NCBI RefSeq assembly: GCF_000213575.1
Contig: NZ_GL892011.1
Location: forward strand, 1 to 64,000
DNA length: 64,000 bases
Source: Dysgonomonas mossii DSM 22836
GTDB taxonomy: Bacteria > Bacteroidota > Bacteroidia > Bacteroidales > Dysgonomonadaceae
Reading direction: 5' to 3'
Shown here: positions 2,750-11,701 of the stretch, in pieces
How the letters are laid out: each line of letters begins with the position of its first letter
Numbering within the stretch: the first letter of the stretch is position 1
Program-made: the position numbers and the translations under genes
The notes under the pieces: model-generated
Database searches by the model: none
What the model saw: only the letters and a program-made list of their open reading frames with translations
What the model was told of the DNA's origin: nothing

Positions 2750-2767
2750 ACGGGCGGAAACGCCCGT
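2750..2767 (+). terminator. Hairpin after the rightward gene group
   Basis: ACGGGCG, loop GAAA (a stable GNRA tetraloop), CGCCCGT, 11 bp behind the stop of the 224-residue gene. TTACTATTCTT follows, so the U-run is weak, but the position and stability fit a terminator. Confidence 0.65.
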
Positions 2768-2805
2768 TACTATTCTTATGAGATTTCCAAATTATTTTGA
2801 AGAAA

Positions 2806-2849
2806 ATATTAAAACTTGCGAAGAATTAATTCTTCGCAAGTTTTAATAT
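2806..2849. terminator. Perfect 44-bp palindrome overlapping the 3' end of the CDF gene
   Basis: Every base from 2806 to 2827 pairs with 2849 to 2828. The right half encodes the last residues LKLAKN and the stop of the leftward transporter gene. It stands between two converging transcripts and would stop transcription from both sides. The arms end in AT-rich sequence, which gives a U-tract in either direction. Confidence 0.7.
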
Positions 2850-3623
2850 CCTTATTGCCCCTCTGATAACAATAAGAAAGACGATACTACCGATAATAAG
2901 GTCTGGTATCTGATTATTTAATTGCCATACCAAGAATCCTGCAAGAATTACCCCTGCATTTATAATCACATCATTAGATGAAAAAATGATACTTGCCTGT
3001 ATATGGGCATCTTTGCTTTTTGTCCTTTGAAGTAAAAGCAAACAAATGACATTGGCAATCAAAGCAAGTATGGATACACCTATCATCGTTTGAAAGACAG
3101 GCATTTCTTCTGCACCTGTAAACCGCCTGATTACCTCTATAAAACCGATTGCAGCCAAAAATATCTGGAAATATCCGCAAATCATGGCAACCCGCTTTTT
3201 ACGGCTTACGGCTGCACCTACCGCAAACAAGCTTAATCCATATACAAAAGCATCGGCAAGCATATCAAGACTATCCGCAACCAATCCCATTGATTTGGAT
3301 ATGATACCCGTTGACATTTCAATCAGGAAAAAACTGAAGTTAATAGCCAACACAATCCAAAGGACTTTACGCTGTTTACTATCTTCCTCTGCCTTAAATT
3401 CGCCTGTCATTTCAGCACTTTCAATAAAGCGTGAACCGAGATTCAAGGTAGCAAGCTGTTGTTCGATTATTTGATAGTCGCCTGTATGGTAAACAGTCAA
3501 TACCCTGCCTTTCAGGTCAAATTCCTGTTTGGCAATACCCTCTACGTTTTGAAGTTTCATCCGAATGAGGTTTTCCTCACTCGGACAATCCATTTGTTCA
3601 ATTTTAAAAATTGATTTATTCAT
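2826..3623 (-). CDS. Heavy-metal cation transporter: HMA domain fused to a CDF-type membrane domain
   Basis: A 265-residue protein. Residues 1-70 look like a heavy-metal-associated domain in which the usual GMTCxxC loop is EQMDCPSEEN, so only one Cys and two Glu are present. Residues about 88-260 contain six membrane segments of the cation diffusion facilitator type, with DSLDMLADA in segment 2 and SSNDVIINAG in segment 5, the places that hold the metal site (HxxxD) in CDF antiporters. No C-terminal cytoplasmic CDF domain is present. It should export a divalent or soft metal by antiport with protons. The start is 1 bp behind the stop of the TonB receptor, so the two are translationally coupled. 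Substrate is not readable from sequence. Confidence 0.8.
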   Translation of the reverse strand: MNKSIFKIEQMDCPSEENLIRMKLQNVEGIAKQEFDLKGRVLTVYHTGDYQIIEQQLATLNLGSRFIESAEMTGEFKAEEDSKQRKVLWIVLAINFSFFLIEMSTGIISKSMGLVADSLDMLADAFVYGLSLFAVGAAVSRKKRVAMICGYFQIFLAAIGFIEVIRRFTGAEEMPVFQTMIGVSILALIANVICLLLLQRTKSKDAHIQASIIFSSNDVIINAGVILAGFLVWQLNNQIPDLIIGSIVFLIVIRGAIRILKLAKN

Positions 3624-3624
3624 T

Positions 3625-5802
3625 TTACAATTTAAATATTATCCCGGCATTCAGAACAAAACCGTCCAATGGTGCGTAAATATCCCGGAATTCGGGCTTA
3701 GTCATCGAACCTGTATGAATGGTGTCGAACCTTGTCTGCCGTCTGTCGGTAAAGTTCTCAAAGTTAGCATATATTGAGAATCTTTCCCAAATCCGTTGCA
3801 TCATTAATCCGCAGATAAGGTAATCTTTTCCCTTTTTTCCGTCATTCAAGTTTTGTTTTCCTGTATAGTAGGCTTCTAATCCGATTTTCCATTTATCTTC
3901 CACCTCATACATTAATACAGAATTGATTTTATGTTTCGGTGTAAGGGTTTTCTGATAGCTTCTGCCGTCTTCCTTAACTTTAGCATCCGTATAGGTATAT
4001 CCGAGAAATAAACCAAAGTCCTTATATTTTATTTTCATATTGGTTTCAGCCCCTTTGCTGTCCACATGACCGTCTATGTTGTTAAACTGCCAACGGTTAT
4101 TATCCGCAGCTTGCAGTTCAAGCGGATTTTTCAGGCAAGTATAAAAGAATAACTGGTTTATACTTAAATATACTTGGTCGTCAAACAAACCTGTTTTATA
4201 AGTGAAATCCACATTTGCCCCGTAGCTTCTTTCCAGTTTGTTATTATCATCATCTATCGGCAAGACATTCTGAAACTGTATGCGTTCGCTATCTTCCGAA
4301 AAAATGGTAGGTGCTTTATATCCGAATCCGCCACCTACACGGGATGAAAATTTATCCGTTATTTTGAAATGTGACGATATACGGGGCAGTACTGCAAAAC
4401 CGTAATCGGTAACATAGTCGGTACGCAATCCGGTTTCAAGGTTCATCCAGTCCGTTATTTTCGTATTGTTTTGTACAAATAAGCCTAAAGTAGTCATATT
4501 GTAGTCTCGCAAAGGAAAATCGGTCAGTTTCCTTTCGGTAAATTTATCCGTCCATATATTTGCACCGGCTACCCATTCTGTCTTTTCTTTCGTATGTATA
4601 TAGGATACTTCCGAGAAAGACGATAGCTGCTCTCCGTCAAATTTAAAATCGGGAATCTCAATCTTACGGCTGAAATAGGTTACACTGTTTTTTACATTCA
4701 ATCTGTTTTGTTTATCAAAACGGTGTTCAAATGTAAGTTGGCTTGAATGCCTCTGTGTCTTGTTTCTTTCAAAATAAGAATGTTCTTCATCCCCTTTATC
4801 TTTTAAATATCCCATATCACCACCTAAACGGGTTTCTATCATGGAGTTTATACCGAAATTTAAGTCTGTATTTTCAGACAGGTATAAGAATAGTTTTGGA
4901 TTCAATACAAACCTATCGAATTTTGGTATTGCTGTAAAGCCTACATCTGACGGGTCATAAGCCCAGTTACGGTTATACGATGCAAATACGGTAGTACCTA
5001 CTTTATTGAATTTCTGACCGAAAAAGCTGTTTACATCAAGTCCTTTGCCTGTTGTCCCGTTCAGGTGTATTGAAAAATCCCTTTCTTTTTCAGGTGTTTT
5101 CGATATAAGGTTTACCAAACCCGCAATCGCACCGCCACCGTATAAGGTAGAAGAAGAACCTTTTATAATTTCAACCTGCTTTAAATCGAGAGGCGGTGTC
5201 TGTAATAAGCCTAATCCGCTTGCTGCACCCGAAAATACAGGAAAACCGTCTTTTAATATTTGGGTGTATCTACCGTCCAAGCCCTGAATACGGATAGATG
5301 AATTACCCGATATGGCAGATGTTTGTTGCGTCATAATACCCGTGCTTTCATTCAGAAGCATACGGATATCTCCGGGTTTCATAACCCCTTTTTCGCCTAA
5401 TTCTTCGGCATTTATAAATTCAATGCGTGTAGGAATATCTTTAAAAGTACGTGTTCCCCTTGTCGAAGAAACAACTATTTCCTGCAATGTTTCTTCGTCC
5501 GCTTCAACCCTGATAACAATAACTTCATCCGAAGCCAAAGGGAATGTAAACTCTTTGATGGTTTTTTCATATCCCACATAAGTAATTTCAAACTTATGTT
5601 TTCCATCAGGAATATTGGAGAGAACCGCCAAACCTTCGGTATCGGAAGATGTACCGTTCGTTGTGTTTTGTAGCACAATATTAGCACCTATTAATATCTC
5701 TTTGCTATCACAATCTATTAATTTGACTCTAAGTGTGTTTTGTGCGAAAATATTGGAAAAGCTGAATGCTAAAAATAACATCAGTATAATTTTTGTTTTC
5801 AT
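3625..5802 (-). CDS. TonB-dependent outer-membrane receptor
   Basis: A 725-residue protein. Residues 1-20 form a signal peptide (LMLFLAFSFSNIFAQ). Residues about 22-108 are a CarboxypepD_reg-like domain ending in GYEKTIKEFTF. The plug follows from about 120 to 235 (ARxxE-like IPTRIEFINAEE, IRIQGLDGRYTQILKDGFPV, VEIIKGSSSTLYGGGAIAGLVNLIS). The rest is a 22-strand-type barrel closing with the aromatic strand FVLNAGIIFKL. It would import a ligand or metal complex at the outer membrane with energy from TonB. The partner CDF gene begins 1 bp downstream, and a Cys-rich protein lies upstream, so a metal is the likely substrate. It is shorter than SusC proteins and has no SusD partner, as expected for metal or siderophore receptors. 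Confidence 0.9.
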   Translation of the reverse strand: MKTKIILMLFLAFSFSNIFAQNTLRVKLIDCDSKEILIGANIVLQNTTNGTSSDTEGLAVLSNIPDGKHKFEITYVGYEKTIKEFTFPLASDEVIVIRVEADEETLQEIVVSSTRGTRTFKDIPTRIEFINAEELGEKGVMKPGDIRMLLNESTGIMTQQTSAISGNSSIRIQGLDGRYTQILKDGFPVFSGAASGLGLLQTPPLDLKQVEIIKGSSSTLYGGGAIAGLVNLISKTPEKERDFSIHLNGTTGKGLDVNSFFGQKFNKVGTTVFASYNRNWAYDPSDVGFTAIPKFDRFVLNPKLFLYLSENTDLNFGINSMIETRLGGDMGYLKDKGDEEHSYFERNKTQRHSSQLTFEHRFDKQNRLNVKNSVTYFSRKIEIPDFKFDGEQLSSFSEVSYIHTKEKTEWVAGANIWTDKFTERKLTDFPLRDYNMTTLGLFVQNNTKITDWMNLETGLRTDYVTDYGFAVLPRISSHFKITDKFSSRVGGGFGYKAPTIFSEDSERIQFQNVLPIDDDNNKLERSYGANVDFTYKTGLFDDQVYLSINQLFFYTCLKNPLELQAADNNRWQFNNIDGHVDSKGAETNMKIKYKDFGLFLGYTYTDAKVKEDGRSYQKTLTPKHKINSVLMYEVEDKWKIGLEAYYTGKQNLNDGKKGKDYLICGLMMQRIWERFSIYANFENFTDRRQTRFDTIHTGSMTKPEFRDIYAPLDGFVLNAGIIFKL

Positions 5803-5922
5803 TTTTATTCTTCTTTTTAATCTTCAATTTGAAATGATATAGGAGTTACGATACTACAAATAATGTATTATCGCAAAAAACGCAGGGCATATTCTAAATG
5901 TCCTGTAAAATTAAAAGTTGAT

Positions 5923-6237
5923 TTATGCTTTTGGCGGTTGCCAGATTGAAGATTTAAAATCAGGAAGATTATTTCTTAATATATATTCTGATTCGCAATC
6001 AGATGTTGAGCCTAAAGTTATAACTATTGGATTATAAAAACGAGCTTCCGGGAATCCGTAACAAGTATTACAATGTAGAAAAGGAGAACAGCAACTATTA
6101 TCGGTGCAATCATCACAACTATTGCCTATATCATTGCTTATTTCAGCATATATAGATAAACATTTATCCTCTAAACAACAAGGCATTACTGATAGCAGTA
6201 ATACATATATGGATAATATGAGGGATAAATATTTCAT
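5923..6237 (-). CDS. Small Cys-rich exported protein (DUF6660-like)
   Basis: A 104-residue protein with an N-terminal hydrophobic segment (YLSLILSIYVLLLSVMPC) and ten cysteines, most in the block CDDCTDNSCCSPFLHCNTCYGF at about residues 41-62. The composition suggests metal binding in the periplasm. It matches my memory of the DUF6660 family that accompanies metal transporters in Bacteroidetes, but I cannot verify the match. It is the first gene of the leftward TonB-CDF cassette; 120 bp separate it from the receptor. A -7 box ends only 4 bp before the ATG, so the message is probably nearly leaderless. Confidence 0.7.
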   Translation of the reverse strand: MKYLSLILSIYVLLLSVMPCCLEDKCLSIYAEISNDIGNSCDDCTDNSCCSPFLHCNTCYGFPEARFYNPIVITLGSTSDCESEYILRNNLPDFKSSIWQPPKA

Positions 6238-6241
6238 GTGG

Positions 6242-6249
6242 CAAAGGTA
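6242..6249 (-). promoter_or_regulatory. -7 box of the metal cassette promoter
   Basis: On the minus strand TACCTTTG fits the Bacteroidetes -7 consensus TAnnTTTG and lies 4 bp before the ATG of the Cys-rich gene. A TTTG copy 15 bp further upstream could be the -33 element, though the spacing is shorter than usual. The IS110 element lies just upstream and may have replaced older control DNA. Confidence 0.5.
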
Positions 6250-6306
6250 AGAAAATCATATTAACAAATAGTCAGGAATTTAATATTTTTATAATCAGAC
6301 ACCACG

Positions 6307-7323
6307 TTACTGATTGGAATATTGATTATTATAATTAAATATGTAATGATTGTCATTCTTTATTACAGCAAACATCCGAGCTACAAGCTTAGCTCTGATA
6401 GCATTTAATACCGACATTTTATTTTTGCCTTCGCCAACTTTTCTATCGTAGTACGCCCTTAATCCACTATTTTTATTTTGAATAGCAGATAAGGCAGCTA
6501 AATGAAGTAGAGATTTTATACTCTTATTTGCTCTTTGGGAAACCCGATTTTTAGAGAACTGACTACTTCCTGATGAGTAACTAAATGGCGCAACACCCGC
6601 ATGACAACAAAATTTGCGACTATCGGTAAATCGCGTAAAGGCTTGTGTTTCCAATATCATTTTTAAAGAAGTCTTTTTTCCTATTCCTTCAATACTCAAT
6701 AATAATTTCATCTGATGAGACAACAAAGCATCTTTTGCTGCAATACTCTCAATTTCCGCTTCAATATTAGATATTGCTTTATCCAATTCTTTAATAAGCA
6801 GGGATAATCTCTTTAACTTCAACTTATAGACATAATCAGGCATATATTCCTTTTGATCTGATAATTGAGCTTGGTATTTGGCTCTATCAACACATAGCAT
6901 ATTTAATTCTGTTGATAATAGCTTTATTGATTCTATACTTATTGTCGGGTGATTATATATTTTAAGTTTATCTACATAACGATACGCATACAAAGCGATT
7001 CGTTTAGCATCTACCGGATCATTTTTCCCTCGTTGTAATCCGGAACTGTATTTTATTTGGGTAGGGTCTTCTAACCAAAGTTTATAGTTTCCAACTTGAC
7101 AAGAGATTGCTAAAGGATAAATATATAATCCTGTAAATTCAGCACATATTACTATTTGTTCCGCATCTATATTTTGTTCCACACAAATTATAGATAAATA
7201 GTTTTCGATACTCTTTTGATGATTTGGAATAACATCTTGTTTGACCACAGAGCCATTCTTCAACACACAACAATCCAAGTTTTTCTTACTCACATCAATT
7301 CCAATAAAATAAGAGTCTTTCAT
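6307..7323 (-). CDS. IS110-family transposase (DEDD recombinase)
   Basis: A 338-residue protein, the usual size for the family. The N-terminal RuvC-like DEDD domain shows GIDVSKK (Asp10), CAEFTGLY (Glu about 62) and KNDPVDAKRIALYA (two Asp at about 104-107). A helical middle region of about residues 120-210 follows. The C-terminal Tnp domain has LLLSIEGIGKKTSLKMILE (helix-hairpin-helix) and FCCHAGVAPFSYSSGSSQF, where the nucleophilic Ser of the family is expected, then RANKSIKSLLHLAA. Such enzymes use a bridge RNA from the element to choose donor and target. All four acidic residues and the Ser-Gly motif are present, so the protein should be active. Confidence 0.92.
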   Translation of the reverse strand: MKDSYFIGIDVSKKNLDCCVLKNGSVVKQDVIPNHQKSIENYLSIICVEQNIDAEQIVICAEFTGLYIYPLAISCQVGNYKLWLEDPTQIKYSSGLQRGKNDPVDAKRIALYAYRYVDKLKIYNHPTISIESIKLLSTELNMLCVDRAKYQAQLSDQKEYMPDYVYKLKLKRLSLLIKELDKAISNIEAEIESIAAKDALLSHQMKLLLSIEGIGKKTSLKMILETQAFTRFTDSRKFCCHAGVAPFSYSSGSSQFSKNRVSQRANKSIKSLLHLAALSAIQNKNSGLRAYYDRKVGEGKNKMSVLNAIRAKLVARMFAVIKNDNHYIFNYNNQYSNQ

Positions 7324-7427
7324 GATAAAGTGATTTAATGATTTATAATTTGGAAAGGCACTTGAATATATCCTAAAAACCTTAAATATCTTTCAGATTA
7401 AATTCTTATATAGGTCTAATCCAAGAC

Positions 7428-7611
7428 AAATAACAAGTTCGTAATAGTAACATAAGTTATTCCTACTTTCCATGTTGATTTACTTGTTATTTTCCTTTCT
7501 TTTTAATTAATAACGTAAATCATTAAATGTTCTTGAAATTAAATGAATAAAATGAGTTCCAAATAGTAACATAGACTTTACATTTCTCTTTTTCCATATG
7601 GTTCACTCATT
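7428..7611 (-). ncRNA. Candidate bridge RNA of the IS110 element
   Basis: Upstream of the transposase and on its strand lie two large stem-loops. The first in transcript order (7611-7551) is closed by a 7-bp stem AATGAGT/ACTCATT; the second (7492-7428) by an 11-bp stem AAATAACAAGT/ACTTGTTATTT. Both loops share the same two blocks: ATGGAAA on the 5' side and TATGTTACTATT on the 3' side. Total length is about 184 nt. Known IS110 bridge RNAs are encoded at this place, measure about 180 nt and contain two similar internal loops for target and donor. I could not assign the guide bases with confidence. The region has no open frame that could explain the conservation. Confidence 0.6.
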
Positions 7612-7702
7612 ATAGTTTATAAAATAATTACAATGCAAACCTAAGGTTTTCCATGACTTTAATAGCTTTACGGGAAGAAAAAGTAACAAAAAGCCTTTTG
7701 AA

Positions 7703-7742
7703 CCTATTTGTTTTCATACATTTGAGCAAATAGGTATCTTTG
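7703..7742 (+). promoter_or_regulatory. Promoter with 8-bp inverted repeat before the 7761 gene
   Basis: TATCTTTG (7735-7742) is a consensus -7 box placed 18 bp before the ATG. Directly upstream, CCTATTTG (7703-7710) and CAAATAGG (7727-7734) form a perfect inverted repeat that touches the -7 box, where a repressor or activator could bind. Confidence 0.55.
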
Positions 7743-7760
7743 TATTGAAATCTCAATCGT

Positions 7761-8423
7761 ATGGCTGTAAAAATAGAAAAATGGGTAGTTGCCCAGAAAA
7801 AACATAAATTGTCAGACAAGCATGTCCAAATGGCTCGTGAGTTGGGACTGAACCCCGATAAATTAGGAAAAATAGATAATCATAAACAGGAAACATGGAA
7901 AGCTCCATTGCCCCAGTTTATCGAAGAAATATATTACAAACGTTTCAAACGGGAAGAACCGGCAACCATCCGTTCCCTGAAAGAAATCATCGCTGATGAT
8001 AAAGCCAAAAAGGAAAAGAAGAAAAAAGAAAAAGCTAGTCGTCAAGAAAATATCATTTTAGTCAAAGATGATAGTAAAGAAATAGAAAATTCAGCAAAAC
8101 CAGCTTCCCTTTCGGCAAAACTTAAACTGTATAACGAGAAGCCCAAAGTCAAAGTTAAATTAGAGGGTGGAGAAAGTCCGGATTCTATTCTTCTAAAGGA
8201 AGCTCACATTTTTGATGAGGCTTTTGATTTTTATGAAAAAGAAAACGTTACGTTTTCACAGTTGGGATTTATTCTAAAAAATATACATCCCAGATATAAG
8301 CCACGTCGTTATGGCTGTAATACATTAAGGGCAATCTATGAAAAATTAGATAAGTACGAAGTTGTACAGGGAGAAGAACTTGTTGTGCGAAGGATACAAG
8401 AGAATATAATAGAAACTGAATAA
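7761..8423 (+). CDS. Conserved protein with N-terminal KWVVAQKKHKLSDKH domain, unknown function
   Basis: A 220-residue protein in three parts. Residues 1-60 (KIEKWVVAQKKHKLSDKHVQMARELGLNP, KAPLPQFIEEIYYKRF) match a short stand-alone protein type that I have seen in many Gram-negative genomes, of unknown role. Residues 70-130 are very Lys/Glu-rich and probably extended or coiled. The C-terminal 80 residues (SILLKEAHIFDEAFDFYEKENVTFSQLGFILKNIHP) form a separate helical domain with no name known to me. It has its own promoter with operator-like repeat and ends in a shared terminator with the converging PH-domain gene. It is not part of the metal cassette or the tra operon. Confidence 0.65.
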   Translation: MAVKIEKWVVAQKKHKLSDKHVQMARELGLNPDKLGKIDNHKQETWKAPLPQFIEEIYYKRFKREEPATIRSLKEIIADDKAKKEKKKKEKASRQENIILVKDDSKEIENSAKPASLSAKLKLYNEKPKVKVKLEGGESPDSILLKEAHIFDEAFDFYEKENVTFSQLGFILKNIHPRYKPRRYGCNTLRAIYEKLDKYEVVQGEELVVRRIQENIIETE

Positions 8424-8447
8424 AATCCGCCTGTTGGCGGATTTTAT
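8420..8447. terminator. Bidirectional terminator
   Basis: ATAAAATCCGCC and GGCGGATTTTAT pair perfectly (12 bp) around the loop TGTT. It stands between the converging 7761 gene and the PH-domain gene and gives an A-run before and a T-run after the stem in both directions. Confidence 0.85.
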
Positions 8448-8449
8448 CA

Positions 8450-8893
8450 TTAACCAATCTGTAAATTAACCTCCCTTTTGAAGCGAAACGGGCTGGAAAC
8501 ATAATAATAGCAGTTTGTAGCCCATCCGGTGGTAACTACAATAGAGCCATATCCAAAGATACGACCTGCGACACTCTGTACTACCTGAACACCTTCGCAT
8601 TTTGCCAGTACCAGCTCGACCGTCCTGCGGCTTATTACACCTGTTTTCAAAATTACACGTTTATTAGTAACGGCGTAAATTGAACCAACCTTAACCAAAA
8701 CACGCTGCACAAGGGAAACTAACCCCAAGAATAGCAACGTTATCCCTAAATACTGTGTTATTCGGACTTCATCAAAATAACACATAAATCCGATAGCCAA
8801 TAATATAGCAGGTTGCAGGAATAGAAATATATGTATTCTCGCCCTGTACATTATTTCTTCTCCGGGTTGTAAATATGTAGTAAGAAATCTCAT
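8450..8893 (-). CDS. Membrane protein with bacterial PH domain (bPH_2, YdbT/DUF304 type)
   Basis: A 147-residue protein. LQPGEEIMYRARIH opens the family pattern, two membrane segments follow (residues about 23-40 and 46-66), and then the PH-like strand set with YAVTNKRVILKTGVISRRTVELVLAKCEGVQVVQSVAGRIFGYGSIVVTTGW. Such proteins sit in the inner membrane; their molecular role is unknown. The gene lies behind the LytM gene at the end of the transfer operon, a place usual for it in these elements, so it probably travels with the conjugation machinery. Confidence 0.8.
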   Translation of the reverse strand: MRFLTTYLQPGEEIMYRARIHIFLFLQPAILLAIGFMCYFDEVRITQYLGITLLFLGLVSLVQRVLVKVGSIYAVTNKRVILKTGVISRRTVELVLAKCEGVQVVQSVAGRIFGYGSIVVTTGWATNCYYYVSSPFRFKREVNLQIG

Positions 8894-8906
8894 ATTATTT
8901 TTTCGT

Positions 8907-9509
8907 TTATGATTTGTTTTTCAATATTTTAAACAGGCAACTGCACCATCCTGTCGGATTCAGGAAGCGTTTACCTTTCCTGATCTCATAGTGCAAATGG
9001 CTACCTGTCGATATTCCCGTGTTGCCTACACAGGCAATTTGTTGTGTTATACTTACCGAATCGCCTGTATTAACCATCGTTCTGCTTAAATGGGCATAGA
9101 ATGAACGAAAATTTCCTGCGTGTTCAACCTCAATGTAGTTTCCATATCCCGAACAAAAACCTTTACGAACTACGACCCCGTTGCCAGTAGCATATACAGG
9201 AGTACCTTTTGTTTTAGGAATATCAATCCCAGTATGAAATTTTCGTCTTTTATAAATAGGATGACTACGATTTCCAAACCCCGATGAAATACGCAGCGGT
9301 TTCTTAATCGGAAAAATTACCGGATAGTCGGATAACTCATCAATAGACATTTGCAAAGAATCCGCTATCCGCCAGAACTCATTTATAGAATAGACAGGTT
9401 TCGTACATTCTTCTATTTCCGATTTTCTGTTTACAGAATCAAACGGCTGCCCTGATACGGGCAAATGCAGCAAAACGGTAAAGAACATTATTAGGTATTT
9501 CATAATCAA
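8907..9509 (-). CDS. M23 (LytM-type) peptidase of the conjugation system
   Basis: A 200-residue protein with a signal peptide (MKYLIMFFTVLLHLPVSGQ). The catalytic domain at about 80-185 shows HPIYKRRKFHTGIDIPKTKGTPV (the HxxxD zinc ligands), GNGVVVRKG, GNYIEVEHAGNFRSFYAHLS and GSHLHYEIRKG (HxH motif), so all zinc ligands are present. It should cut peptide bridges of peptidoglycan in the periplasm to open space for the mating channel. A start two codons further in (ATG of MKYLIM) is equally possible and gives a better signal peptide. It lies downstream of traQ behind a hairpin. Confidence 0.88.
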   Translation of the reverse strand: MIMKYLIMFFTVLLHLPVSGQPFDSVNRKSEIEECTKPVYSINEFWRIADSLQMSIDELSDYPVIFPIKKPLRISSGFGNRSHPIYKRRKFHTGIDIPKTKGTPVYATGNGVVVRKGFCSGYGNYIEVEHAGNFRSFYAHLSRTMVNTGDSVSITQQIACVGNTGISTGSHLHYEIRKGKRFLNPTGWCSCLFKILKNKS

Positions 9510-9523
9510 TCTGTAAATACAGT

Positions 9524-9549
9524 AAGTACCCGAAATAATCCGGGTACTT
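9524..9549 (-). terminator. Hairpin between traQ and the LytM gene
   Basis: AAGTACCCG (9524-9532) pairs with CGGGTACTT (9541-9549). On the minus strand it follows traQ and precedes the peptidase start by 15 bp. It may end the tra transcript or tune read-through. Confidence 0.55.
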
Positions 9550-9555
9550 GCTTAT

Positions 9556-9666
9556 TTATTCAATTTCCTCTCCCCACAGCTCTACGTCTGTCGGGGCATT
9601 ATTCAACGACCGGGCTATACATAGCCAGCAAAGGACGTTTAACCCTATAAAACTGCATAAAATCAT
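9556..9666 (-). CDS. Candidate 36-residue membrane microprotein overlapping traQ
   Basis: An open frame in the +1 phase of traQ starts at ATG 9666 inside the traQ tail and continues 43 bp past the traQ stop. It reads MILCSFIGLNVLCWLCIARS followed by a polar acidic tail ending in WGEEIE. One hydrophobic helix with an acidic cytoplasmic end is a usual microprotein layout, and the part beyond traQ is still protein-like. Short membrane proteins near the end of tra operons are plausible, but this call rests on composition and position only. Confidence 0.35.
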   Translation of the reverse strand: MILCSFIGLNVLCWLCIARSLNNAPTDVELWGEEIE

Positions 9667-10123
9667 AGACTGATACTTTTTGTAAATCTTCTTTTTCCTC
9701 GTCATCATCCCCCCTATCATTCTGCCAACTGAATGTTTTTTGAACCACCTGACCGAATGAATCTTCTACATATACATCGATAACTTGCTGATCCGTGCTG
9801 TGTGATGTATAGTAAAGTCGGAATGTCGTTTTATTCAACGGGTACAGGTCATTCGGTAGAAATACCGTGCCTTCATCATTTCGTAATTGACCTTTCCCAT
9901 CACTTTGGAAATACCTGATAAAGAACTGTGCCTGCTCGTAGTCGCCTTCCTTTACCAGTTGGCACCGAATTTCCGCACTCTCGCCCTGAACGATTTTTTT
10001 CTGGACGGGCATAGTAACAAGATCAAATGAATAAGCCTGCTGAACATCCAAATCGTCACTACAGGCACAGACTATTGCCGATAGCAATAGCGTGTATAAA
10101 AAATATGCTAAGAATTTTTTCAT
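9599..10123 (-). CDS. traQ: Conjugative transposon protein TraQ (DUF3872)
   Basis: A 174-residue lipoprotein: the signal LYTLLLSAIVCACSDD has a lipobox Cys at residue 20 or so. The body (TMPVQKKIVQGESAEIRCQLVKEGDY, QFFIRYFQSDGKGQL, LYPLNKTTFRLYYTSHSTDQQVIDVYVEDSFGQ) is the DUF3872 domain, an immunoglobulin-like fold. The acidic tail after residue 140 is variable. TraQ is the last classic gene of the Bacteroides tra operon and is needed for transfer in CTnDOT; its exact role is not known. It lies 13 bp behind traO. Confidence 0.85.
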   Translation of the reverse strand: MKKFLAYFLYTLLLSAIVCACSDDLDVQQAYSFDLVTMPVQKKIVQGESAEIRCQLVKEGDYEQAQFFIRYFQSDGKGQLRNDEGTVFLPNDLYPLNKTTFRLYYTSHSTDQQVIDVYVEDSFGQVVQKTFSWQNDRGDDDEEKEDLQKVSVYDFMQFYRVKRPLLAMYSPVVE

Positions 10124-10136
10124 TGTAATTTCTATT

Positions 10137-10739
10137 TTAATTGATTATAAATTTGATTCCCAATCCATACTGGAAATGAAAATGCCCCGATGATGTACCC
10201 CATAACACCCTTTCACGGGCAGTCAGGAGCAACACAACACGGTCGGACAGATACGTTTCCATTTCCAACGTAATAGCACCCCCGTAGATGAACCGGTCTT
10301 TGTTCCGGAGTGTGGAGCCGTCAAAGAGAGTTTTCTCTCCCCAGTTGCTCGTTTCATACCCGGCAAGAGCCGAAGCACCCAAAGAAAAAAGGACTACTTT
10401 ATTATGATCGGAAAGGAATTTCAGGTAATAACCACCCTCTCCGGTAAACTGGCTGACAGGTATCCTGTCATCTTTGTACGGGTAATATTTATTCAGAAAC
10501 TCGGCACCGAATACCCACTTATTTGCATGTTTGGTATAGGTGGCCATCGACAGCCCAAAGTAATAGCCCAGTTCATTTTTTTTGTCTGAAGAGTGGAAAC
10601 CATCCACCATTCCACCTGTTACCTGTATGCCTTGCATACCGGGTAAACAGCGTTGTGCTTGCACTTTGCCCGATATGCCAAAGCATAATATCAGGGCAAA
10701 GCACAATACAAACGCGTAATAAAACGTATCCCGTTTCAT
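10137..10739 (-). CDS. traO: Conjugative transposon protein TraO
   Basis: A 200-residue protein with a signal peptide ending near VQAQR. The rest alternates short beta strands (GMQGIQVTGGMVDGF, YYFGLSMATYTKHANKWVFGAEFLNKYYPY, FHFQYGLGIKFIIN) as expected for a small outer-membrane barrel; the last residues are of the outer-membrane C-terminal type. TraO is a standard member of the Bacteroidetes mating-pair apparatus. Its ATG overlaps the traN stop by one base (TAATG), so translation is coupled. Confidence 0.85.
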   Translation of the reverse strand: MKRDTFYYAFVLCFALILCFGISGKVQAQRCLPGMQGIQVTGGMVDGFHSSDKKNELGYYFGLSMATYTKHANKWVFGAEFLNKYYPYKDDRIPVSQFTGEGGYYLKFLSDHNKVVLFSLGASALAGYETSNWGEKTLFDGSTLRNKDRFIYGGAITLEMETYLSDRVVLLLTARERVLWGTSSGHFHFQYGLGIKFIIN

Positions 10740-11701
10740 TATTTCACTTTTAATTCGTTGATAACTTTCGCTCTTATCAGGTCGGCATTTTCAACTGTAA
10801 AACTTTGATGCCGTCCACCCTCTTTTTCATTCAATTCGATGATAAGGTGCTTATCATCCGGTATCGTAAACTTCGGCAAAGTAAAAATCACACGTTCAGC
10901 CCGTTTTCCACCTATCAATGTCAGGTTATTATGTGCCCGGAGCGGTACGATTACCTGTTCCTGAATGGCTGTACGTTTCGCCAGTTTTTTATCGACAATT
11001 TTGAACGTAATAAAATCTACATCAAACGGCACATTGGAACTATTCTTTAGTTGCATGTGGAAATAAAGCAAGCCATTATGTGTATATATTCCTTTGAGTG
11101 TGTATTGAATCCCGAAACGTTTGGAGCCGATATGCTTTATTTCCCTGTCATCATTCTTATAGATAGATTTCATAATCAGCTTGACCAGTAACGGCGATTC
11201 GCTACCCAGCTCCCTCATATAAATCTCCATAGCGTTGTTCGGTCTGTTCACGGCTTCCCCGTCATGGATAAAGTCGGTCATTTCAACCGACAGTTTAATC
11301 GGCTCATCGGCATATTTAATGTTGAACGTATAATATGCACCATCTTCGGTTATTACCGCCAGATTGCTTTCTTTGGAAAAATCCCGGAGGGCAGCTTTTA
11401 CACGCAGTACATTTTCCGCTCCGTCCGCTTTGGCCGCCAACAGGTCGGCAGAACCTAAGTCCACATAACGGATTGCAGAGGGAAAGATGATATGTACCGT
11501 TTTTGAGAATGTAACCTCCAGTGCATACGGTGGTATCATCCGGTTAAAGGTTAGCGGTCTGGTCAGACCGTCAAAATAATCTCCGGTAGAGGGAGAAATG
11601 TTTGCTGTTTGTTGCTTTTCTACACTCTGTTTTTCAACATCCTGAGCGTTGGCTGTGAATACGCACCCGATAATAGCGAGTACAAAAAGAATTTGTTTCA
11701 T
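10739..11701 (-). CDS. traN: Conjugative transposon protein TraN (DUF4138, VirB9-like)
   Basis: A 320-residue exported protein (signal MKQILFVLAIIGCVFTANAQ). PLTFNRMIPPYALEVTFSKTVHIIFPSAIRYVDLGS is the hallmark DUF4138 start, followed by AAKADGAENVLRVKAAL and a beta-rich C-terminal part with IYTHNGLLYFHMQLKNSSNVPFDVDFI. In position and build it corresponds to VirB9, the outer-membrane-complex partner of TraM (VirB10-like). A copy of the CCACTAAAAAATCC box stands about 35 bp upstream of its start, and a 69-bp gap separates it from traM. Confidence 0.88.
   Translation of the reverse strand: MKQILFVLAIIGCVFTANAQDVEKQSVEKQQTANISPSTGDYFDGLTRPLTFNRMIPPYALEVTFSKTVHIIFPSAIRYVDLGSADLLAAKADGAENVLRVKAALRDFSKESNLAVITEDGAYYTFNIKYADEPIKLSVEMTDFIHDGEAVNRPNNAMEIYMRELGSESPLLVKLIMKSIYKNDDREIKHIGSKRFGIQYTLKGIYTHNGLLYFHMQLKNSSNVPFDVDFITFKIVDKKLAKRTAIQEQVIVPLRAHNNLTLIGGKRAERVIFTLPKFTIPDDKHLIIELNEKEGGRHQSFTVENADLIRAKVINELKVK

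Follow-up and report, generated by a model that had tools for sequence, protein, structure and literature searches.

Passenger-bearing transposons, for example those of the Tn3 family, hold a transposase and unrelated passenger genes between two ends, and the IS1111 group carries its RNA in the right end, together with sub-terminal inverted repeats. In the parts of Durrant et al. (2024; PMC11208160) drawn on here, the elements of the IS110 group are minimal, with the RNA in the left end, and the bridge RNA is a 5′ stem-loop followed by two internal loops, one for the target and one for the donor. Descriptions of bridge RNAs present them as bispecific, with a single loop for the target and another for the donor, and come from minimal IS elements. 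For ISEc21 and ISEc11, the sections of Siddiquee et al. (2024; PMC11187229) used here report a seekRNA and the movement of engineered cargo.

Here, we describe a related locus in the window, by which we mean the whole 64 kb stretch of DNA that was analyzed. Taking all the evidence together, the best explanation, in which we have considerable though not complete confidence, is that positions 2775-7646 of the minus strand are an IS110-family transposon of 4872 bp, with a three-loop bridge RNA and passenger genes. The features of the locus are collected in Table 1.

Table 1. Features of the element, its predicted RNA (TBL, target-binding loop; DBL, donor-binding loop; LE, left end; RE, right end) and its flanks, in window coordinates.
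Feature	Position	Strand	Basis
Target right half TAGTAACGGGCG and core AA (2773-2774), flanking RE	2761..2774	-	junctions; empty site
RE, TTTG-N7-TCATAAG	2775..2791	-	copy and relative comparison
Candidate -33 box TTTG in RE	2788-2791	-	junction model
Cation-efflux family protein, 265 aa	2826..3623	-	Pfam PF01545 above cut-off
TonB-dependent receptor, 725 aa	3625..5802	-	Pfam above cut-off
Small cysteine-rich ORF, 104 aa	5923..6237	-	ORF list
IS110 transposase, 338 aa, DEDD domain and Transposase_20	6307..7323	-	Pfam, NCBIfam
Possible outer stem around TBL2 and DBL, GAAAGG / CCTTTC	7494..7499 / 7353..7358	-	by eye
DBL, donor-binding loop	7361..7425	-	RNAalifold, covariation, donor match
DBL right donor guide TAAGGTT	7378-7384	-	donor match
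DBL left donor guide ATAAGAA	7403-7409	-	donor match
TBL2, target-binding loop adjoining DBL	7429..7492	-	covariance model, stem covariation, guide matches
TBL2 right guide GTTACTATT	7443-7451	-	target match
TBL2 left guide CATGGAAA	7467-7474	-	target match
TBL1, extra target-binding loop on the 5′ side	7548..7614	-	covariance model, guide matches
TBL1 right guide GTTACTATT	7562-7570	-	target match
TBL1 left guide ATGGAAAA	7590-7597	-	target match
LE CCTTAGGTTTGC	7635..7646	-	copy comparison
Candidate -7 box TAGGTTTG in LE	7636-7643	-	junction model
Target left half CATGGAA and core AA (7647-7648)	7647..7655	-	junctions; empty site
Host repeat bearing the target, 5′ arm GGCTTTTTGTTACTTTTTCTTC	7674..7695	-	flank comparison

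The transposase scored above the cut-offs of both Pfam PF01548 and PF02371, and reached 155.6 bits against NCBIfam NF033542, “IS110 family RNA-guided transposase” (cut-off 140); it has both the DEDD domain and the Transposase_20 domain by which the IS110 family is recognized. An identical transposase occurs in named records of Parabacteroides (two) and Seramator, and a 90% identical one in eight other named records (L022-L029). Plasmid records contained seven distant relatives, all at 45% identity or less, and viral contigs contained five, one of which (L094) was taken into the analysis.

The boundaries of the element could be placed by comparison of copies. In two loci, L071 and L073, copies 99.6% and 98.4% identical to that of the window lie in different flanks on both sides, and the similarity ends at LE CCTTAGGTTTGC and RE TCTCATAAG. 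The left junctions read CATGGAA-AA-CCTTAG, or the same with one extra A, and the right junction in the window reads CATAAG-AA-TAGTAAC. An empty target, CATGGAAAATAGTAACGG, lies on a different contig of the same genome (3.95 Mb), the sole match among 101 family genomes; it agrees with L071 over 52 nt (96%) of the left flank and 213 nt (89%) of the right flank. The points of divergence, the junctions and the empty site together set the element at 2775-7646, 4872 bp, with an insertion site of CATGGAA[AA]TAGTAAC; the L071 copy is likewise 4872 bp. The right junction of L071 lacks AATAG, and that of L100 is also short of bases. In the one-loop relatives described below, the base preceding the last A of the left junction varies, so the core in the wider family may be looser than a strict AA. 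Further empty targets were sought with an order-wide pattern search of 393 genomes, which gave one match (L099), and with a relaxed search of 15 carrier genomes, which gave none.

Some features of the surroundings were also recorded. Near base 1500 of the reversed locus L088, the host repeat GGCTTTTTGTTACTTTTTC...CATGGAAAATAGTAAC forms an imperfect inverted repeat, and variants of this type with GCTTC or GTTTC are found ahead of other element copies. The genes at 8450-11701 of the window encode M23 peptidase, bacterial PH and DUF4138 domains, which we take to suggest that the transposon sits in a conjugative element.

A sequence-only reading had drawn attention to two hairpins on the minus strand at 7428-7611, and proposed that they form a bridge RNA of about 184 nt. 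Both hairpins are present, with ATGGAAA as a common 5′ block and TATGTTACTATT as a common 3′ block, and folding returned the closing stems that had been described, seven pairs in the upstream hairpin and 11 in the downstream one, all perfect. The proposed length falls short, because the predicted RNA extends 3′ to around 7352 and includes a third, donor-binding stem-loop. Comparison of relatives predicts a structured RNA region ahead of the transposase, within a long left end, as in the IS110 group; instead of exactly one target and one donor loop, the pattern of that group, there are two target-type loops. The bridge RNA, perhaps spanning 7352 to about 7630, would consist of TBL1, then TBL2, then a single DBL, and we infer that all three loops are made on one transcript. 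The GAAAGG/CCTTTC stem that may enclose TBL2 and DBL does not appear in the RNAalifold consensus.

The longest exact runs of complementarity to the window's flanks are 8 nt (left) and 9 nt (right) in TBL1, and again 8 and 9 nt in TBL2. Among 2,000 single-base shuffles, equally long runs arose 22 and 0 times for TBL1, and seven and two times for TBL2. The DBL matches each donor end over 7 nt and the target over just 4 nt, with donor runs of equal length in 83 and 37 of 2,000 shuffles; a loop with guides for both donor ends, as in bridge RNAs of the IS110 group, is therefore present. Of 14 elements, 13 have ATAAG in RE; the exception is L037, with ATTAG both in RE and in the left donor guide. 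This is the only variation on the donor side, so the covariation of the left donor guide rests on a single change.

Thermodynamic folding separated these loops only partly from shuffled sequence. TBL2 had a fold energy z of -3.11 (1 of 200 shuffles as good), TBL1 a z of -1.70 (10 of 200), and the whole 301-nt region was ordinary (z -0.33, 34 of 100). Fold energy by itself is weak evidence in DNA as AT-rich as this, and a much stronger case comes from comparison with relatives. A covariance model was trained on the single target loops of 11 one-loop Bacteroidales relatives, none from the window's clade (L037, L038, L040, L041, L044, L045, L048, L049, L086, L091 and L094; transposases 46% to 58% identical to the window's over the best segment). 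It found TBL1 at 7546-7615 with 30.0 bits (E 1.8e-6) and TBL2 at 7427-7492 with 28.0 bits (E 6.9e-6); the third and final match in the 64 kb had an E of 0.4, and nothing else there was convincing. Its homology to the single target loop of the relatives makes TBL1, by ancestry, a genuine target loop.

The same model was applied to other loci. In 10 loci of the window's clade, among which L071 and L073 duplicate the window's element, it matched both loops in seven and TBL2 alone in three (L080, L081 and L084), the weakest match being TBL1 of L100 (E 0.11). In a second set, of 28 other loci, the model matched every one of the 11 training elements once on its own strand and two of them on the reverse strand as well; weak single matches came from L011, L015 and L092. 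A search of Rfam returned nothing convincing, with two matches far under the gathering scores (E 0.12 and 0.87).

The sequence-only reading had named two checks of its proposal, paired changes in the stems and loop bases that follow the insertion flanks, and both came out in its favor. For the first, the TBL2-DBL core could be aligned over 154-160 nt across 18 distinct elements, leaving out many more distant or truncated loci. The RNAalifold consensus has one stem for TBL2, one for DBL and a further, inner stem in DBL; 93.9% of cells in these stems are paired, and 16 of the 21 pairs have compensatory changes on both sides. None of 500 shuffles scored as high, and the best slid version was 47.4% paired. 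The closing stem of TBL1 is nearly invariant among copies, so this loop gives no covariation test of its own; when TBL1 was compared with TBL2, two of seven pairs covaried, a count equaled by 310 of 500 shuffles.

For the second check, ten flank bases on each side were compared with the guides, using each element's own flanks and 2,000 permutations of the flanks. The guides fit 97 of 130 left-flank bases (n = 13; permuted mean 78.2, sd 3.6, maximum 91) and 87 of 110 right-flank bases (n = 11; permuted mean 71.6, sd 3.2, maximum 84), and no permutation equaled the observed fit on either side. L083, L078, L084, L080 and L039 were kept out of this comparison, as they share a window-type target or lack a flank, and the window and L082 entered by TBL2 only. 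Poor fits were found in L040 (6/10 on both sides) and on the left in L045 and L091 (6/10). The left flank of L040, CATAAGAAAACCTTAG, resembles a junction between a right and a left end, so this locus may be a tandem or rearranged copy.

A further suggestion of the sequence-only reading, that the RNA could define a new bridge-RNA type for Bacteroidetes, held in part. The core type, with a target loop and a donor loop, is widespread among the Bacteroidales relatives. The doubled target loop is, in the tree of 24 transposases built here, restricted to a single clade: a branch with support 100/100 separates the seven two-loop rows, L079 included, from the rest.

Several rearranged loci were also encountered. 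L079 (Bacteroides graminisolvens, near 3381-10245 of the reversed locus) has lost its left end and both target loops, and retains the donor loop, the transposase and an arsenic-type cargo. In L087, a second, truncated IS110 copy lies about 1.3 kb past the transposase, beside the full copy, whose right end and target half (AATATGAATGATTTATTT) it shares. Upstream of the RNA in L037 and L044, the left-end motif ACCTTAGCTTTGCA occurs twice in tandem.

The alternative that survives best is that one of the two target loops, TBL1 (or TBL2), is a dead duplicate, so that the element works with one target loop and the other is a lookalike relic. We regard this as a live possibility, short of an even chance. 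In L080/L081 and L084, TBL2 alone is recognizable and TBL1 is degenerate or damaged; in L078, the left guide fit is 6/10 for TBL2 and 9/10 for TBL1; L083 has a core mismatch in the right guide of TBL2; and the one-loop relatives get by on a single target loop. Against a relic, both loops are conserved far above the spacer between them. Identities to the window for TBL1, spacer, TBL2 and DBL are 0.95, 0.50, 0.86 and 0.95 in L078; 0.76, 0.30, 0.67 and 0.86 in L082; 0.85, 0.31, 0.59 and 0.83 in L039; and 0.97, 0.94, 0.96 and 0.97 in L083. Also, both left guides of L100 are ATACGAAAA and fit its altered target CTCACGAAAA at 8/10 each, compared with only 6/10 for the window's loops.

The remaining evidence against a relic comes from two elements in which the loops differ from one another, with right guides of GCTTC in TBL1 and GTTTC in TBL2. 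L082 is fitted better by TBL1 (8 left and 9 right) than by TBL2 (7 and 8), and the left flank of L039 is fitted better by TBL2 (9/10) than by TBL1 (7/10). The right flank of L039 lies beyond the contig edge, and the homologues of its interrupted gene, at about 37-46% identity, are too distant to give an empty site. These fits suggest, by small margins, that the loops of L082 and L039 are used separately. For the element in general, we infer that both target loops are used, which would widen or back up the choice of target. The stronger claim, that the clade evolved a multi-target bridge RNA in which two independently aimed target loops share a donor loop on one transcript, is one we advance tentatively and would not count on.

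Elsewhere in the window's clade, the passengers include genes of arsenic or CusA/CzcA type. Searches of Pfam and NCBIfam gave no family match for the cysteine-rich ORF; for the cation-efflux protein, the NCBIfam CDF model TIGR01297 fell just under its cut-off, and an N-terminal HMA-like match was under the Pfam cut-off. The cargo of L083 comprises an ArsR-type regulator, an arsenite methyltransferase, a protein with an LMW-phosphatase fold (NCBIfam arsenate reductase match below cut-off), ACR3, ArsF-like, DsbD_2, ArsD and ArsA, followed by window-type genes. L078 carries ArsR-type, ACR3-type (SBF), ArsP_1 permease and methyltransferase genes, and L082 a histidine kinase, a CusA/CzcA-type RND pump, and outer-membrane and fusion proteins; L084, by eye, carries a regulator-like and a dehydrogenase-like ORF. 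L100 (G031:C28:84000-92983) has lost the middle of its transposase and kept LE, both target loops and cargo, and is a candidate non-autonomous passenger unit.

It could be argued that these genes lie outside the mobile unit, the RE motif 3.5 kb downstream being due to chance or a remnant of another copy. In the one-loop relatives, the right end comes straight after the transposase (at most about 50 nt from the transposase match in nine of 11, the other two running off the contig), and the conjugation-type genes in the surrounding DNA are open to other reshuffling. We nevertheless consider this reading improbable. The same RE and AATAG target half recur past the transposase match at 3.5 kb in the window, 10.9 kb in L083, 7.3 kb in L078, 2.1 kb in L084 and 7.7 kb in L082; RE also lies at 3.5 kb in L072 and L073 and at 10.9 kb in L074-L077, and in L080/L081, no RE was found within the 5.9 kb of sequence. 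In addition, copies in different flanks lose similarity at LE and RE, and the window's RE fits the left donor guide of the DBL.

Two other explanations have very little to recommend them. Canonical IS110 bridge RNAs have one target loop and then one donor loop, in the portion of PMC11208160 used here, and the sequence-only reading was right that the hairpins belong to the bridge (seek) RNA of an IS110 element, and wrong to divide them into a target and a donor loop: both match the target, with donor runs that are short and chance-like (5 and 4 nt in TBL1; 4 and 0 nt in TBL2) beside their long target runs, both share homology with the one target loop that relatives have, and the 7-nt runs to each donor end are in the third stem, which makes such a division hardly credible. 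That the hairpins are terminators or attenuators controlling the transposase, and not guides, is suggested by their place between the left end and the transposase on the transposase strand, and is just as hard to credit, since the loop sequences track the insertion flanks in the permutation test and the conserved parts include guide positions as well as stems.

On the preferred reading, of a transposon with a three-loop bridge RNA, each target loop would be able to pair with both halves of CATGGAA[AA]TAGTAAC, the DBL would pair with ATAAG[AA]CCTTA, the sequence at which the ends meet in the excised circle, and the recombinase would exchange strands at AA. A promoter, TTTG-N18-TAGGTTTG, would arise only once the ends join. 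According to the part of PMC7366714 that we draw on, the Bacteroides promoter consensus has TTTG around -33 and TAnnTTTG at -7, and Flavobacterium showed no such -33 motif. We modeled the junctions of 13 elements by joining RE, AA and LE: all 13 had a TTG box and 11 had TAnnTTTG, at a spacing of 18 in 10 elements and 17 in one, while L082 and L049 lacked the final G of TAnnTTTG. The resemblance of these modeled junctions to the Bacteroides consensus makes the predicted expression from the circle plausible.

If the multi-target reading is true, one cargo-bearing, RNA-guided transposon could address two target variants, and L082 and L039 would be the clearest cases for it. The clade, with its naturally duplicated target loop, lends itself to asking whether a single RNA is able to direct a single recombinase to two sites, and also bears on how a target loop acquires new specificity. 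A natural cargo of 2-11 kb would show RNA-guided recombination spreading adaptive genes, beyond the spread of the element itself, among the conjugative elements of Bacteroidales.

Compared with passenger transposons of the Tn3 type, the window's element is predicted to be RNA-guided, with ends that would be read by the donor loop of its RNA and in which no long terminal inverted repeats were noticed; compared with the IS1111 group, its RNA is in the left and not the right end. The one-loop Bacteroidales relatives have the same core RNA and the same CCTTA / TAAG-type ends as the window, and differ from it in having a single target loop. With IS621 and the IS110 group, as presented in the parts of PMC11208160 used here, the element shares an RNA upstream of the transposase within the left end, a left and a right guide against the target and likewise against the donor, and a core included in the pairings. 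It differs from IS621 in having a second target-type loop in the position of the 5′ stem-loop, a core of AA instead of CT, passenger genes inside the element, and, across RE-LE in the circle, a candidate promoter of the Bacteroides type where a sigma-70 promoter has been reported. In the sections of PMC11187229 used here, the noncoding RNA of ISEc21/ISEc11 has short matches to both target strands, as in the window, and the abutted ends of the circle form a promoter, like the candidate described here; their cargo was artificial and the window's is natural, and those sections make no mention of a second target-matching unit. Among open-licence PubMed Central papers, a literature with no preprints and few subscription papers and used here in part, neither a doubled target loop nor a natural IS110 cargo was found. 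The element in the window is a variant of the known IS110 bridge-RNA kind, and its doubled target loop and natural cargo are new within that literature.
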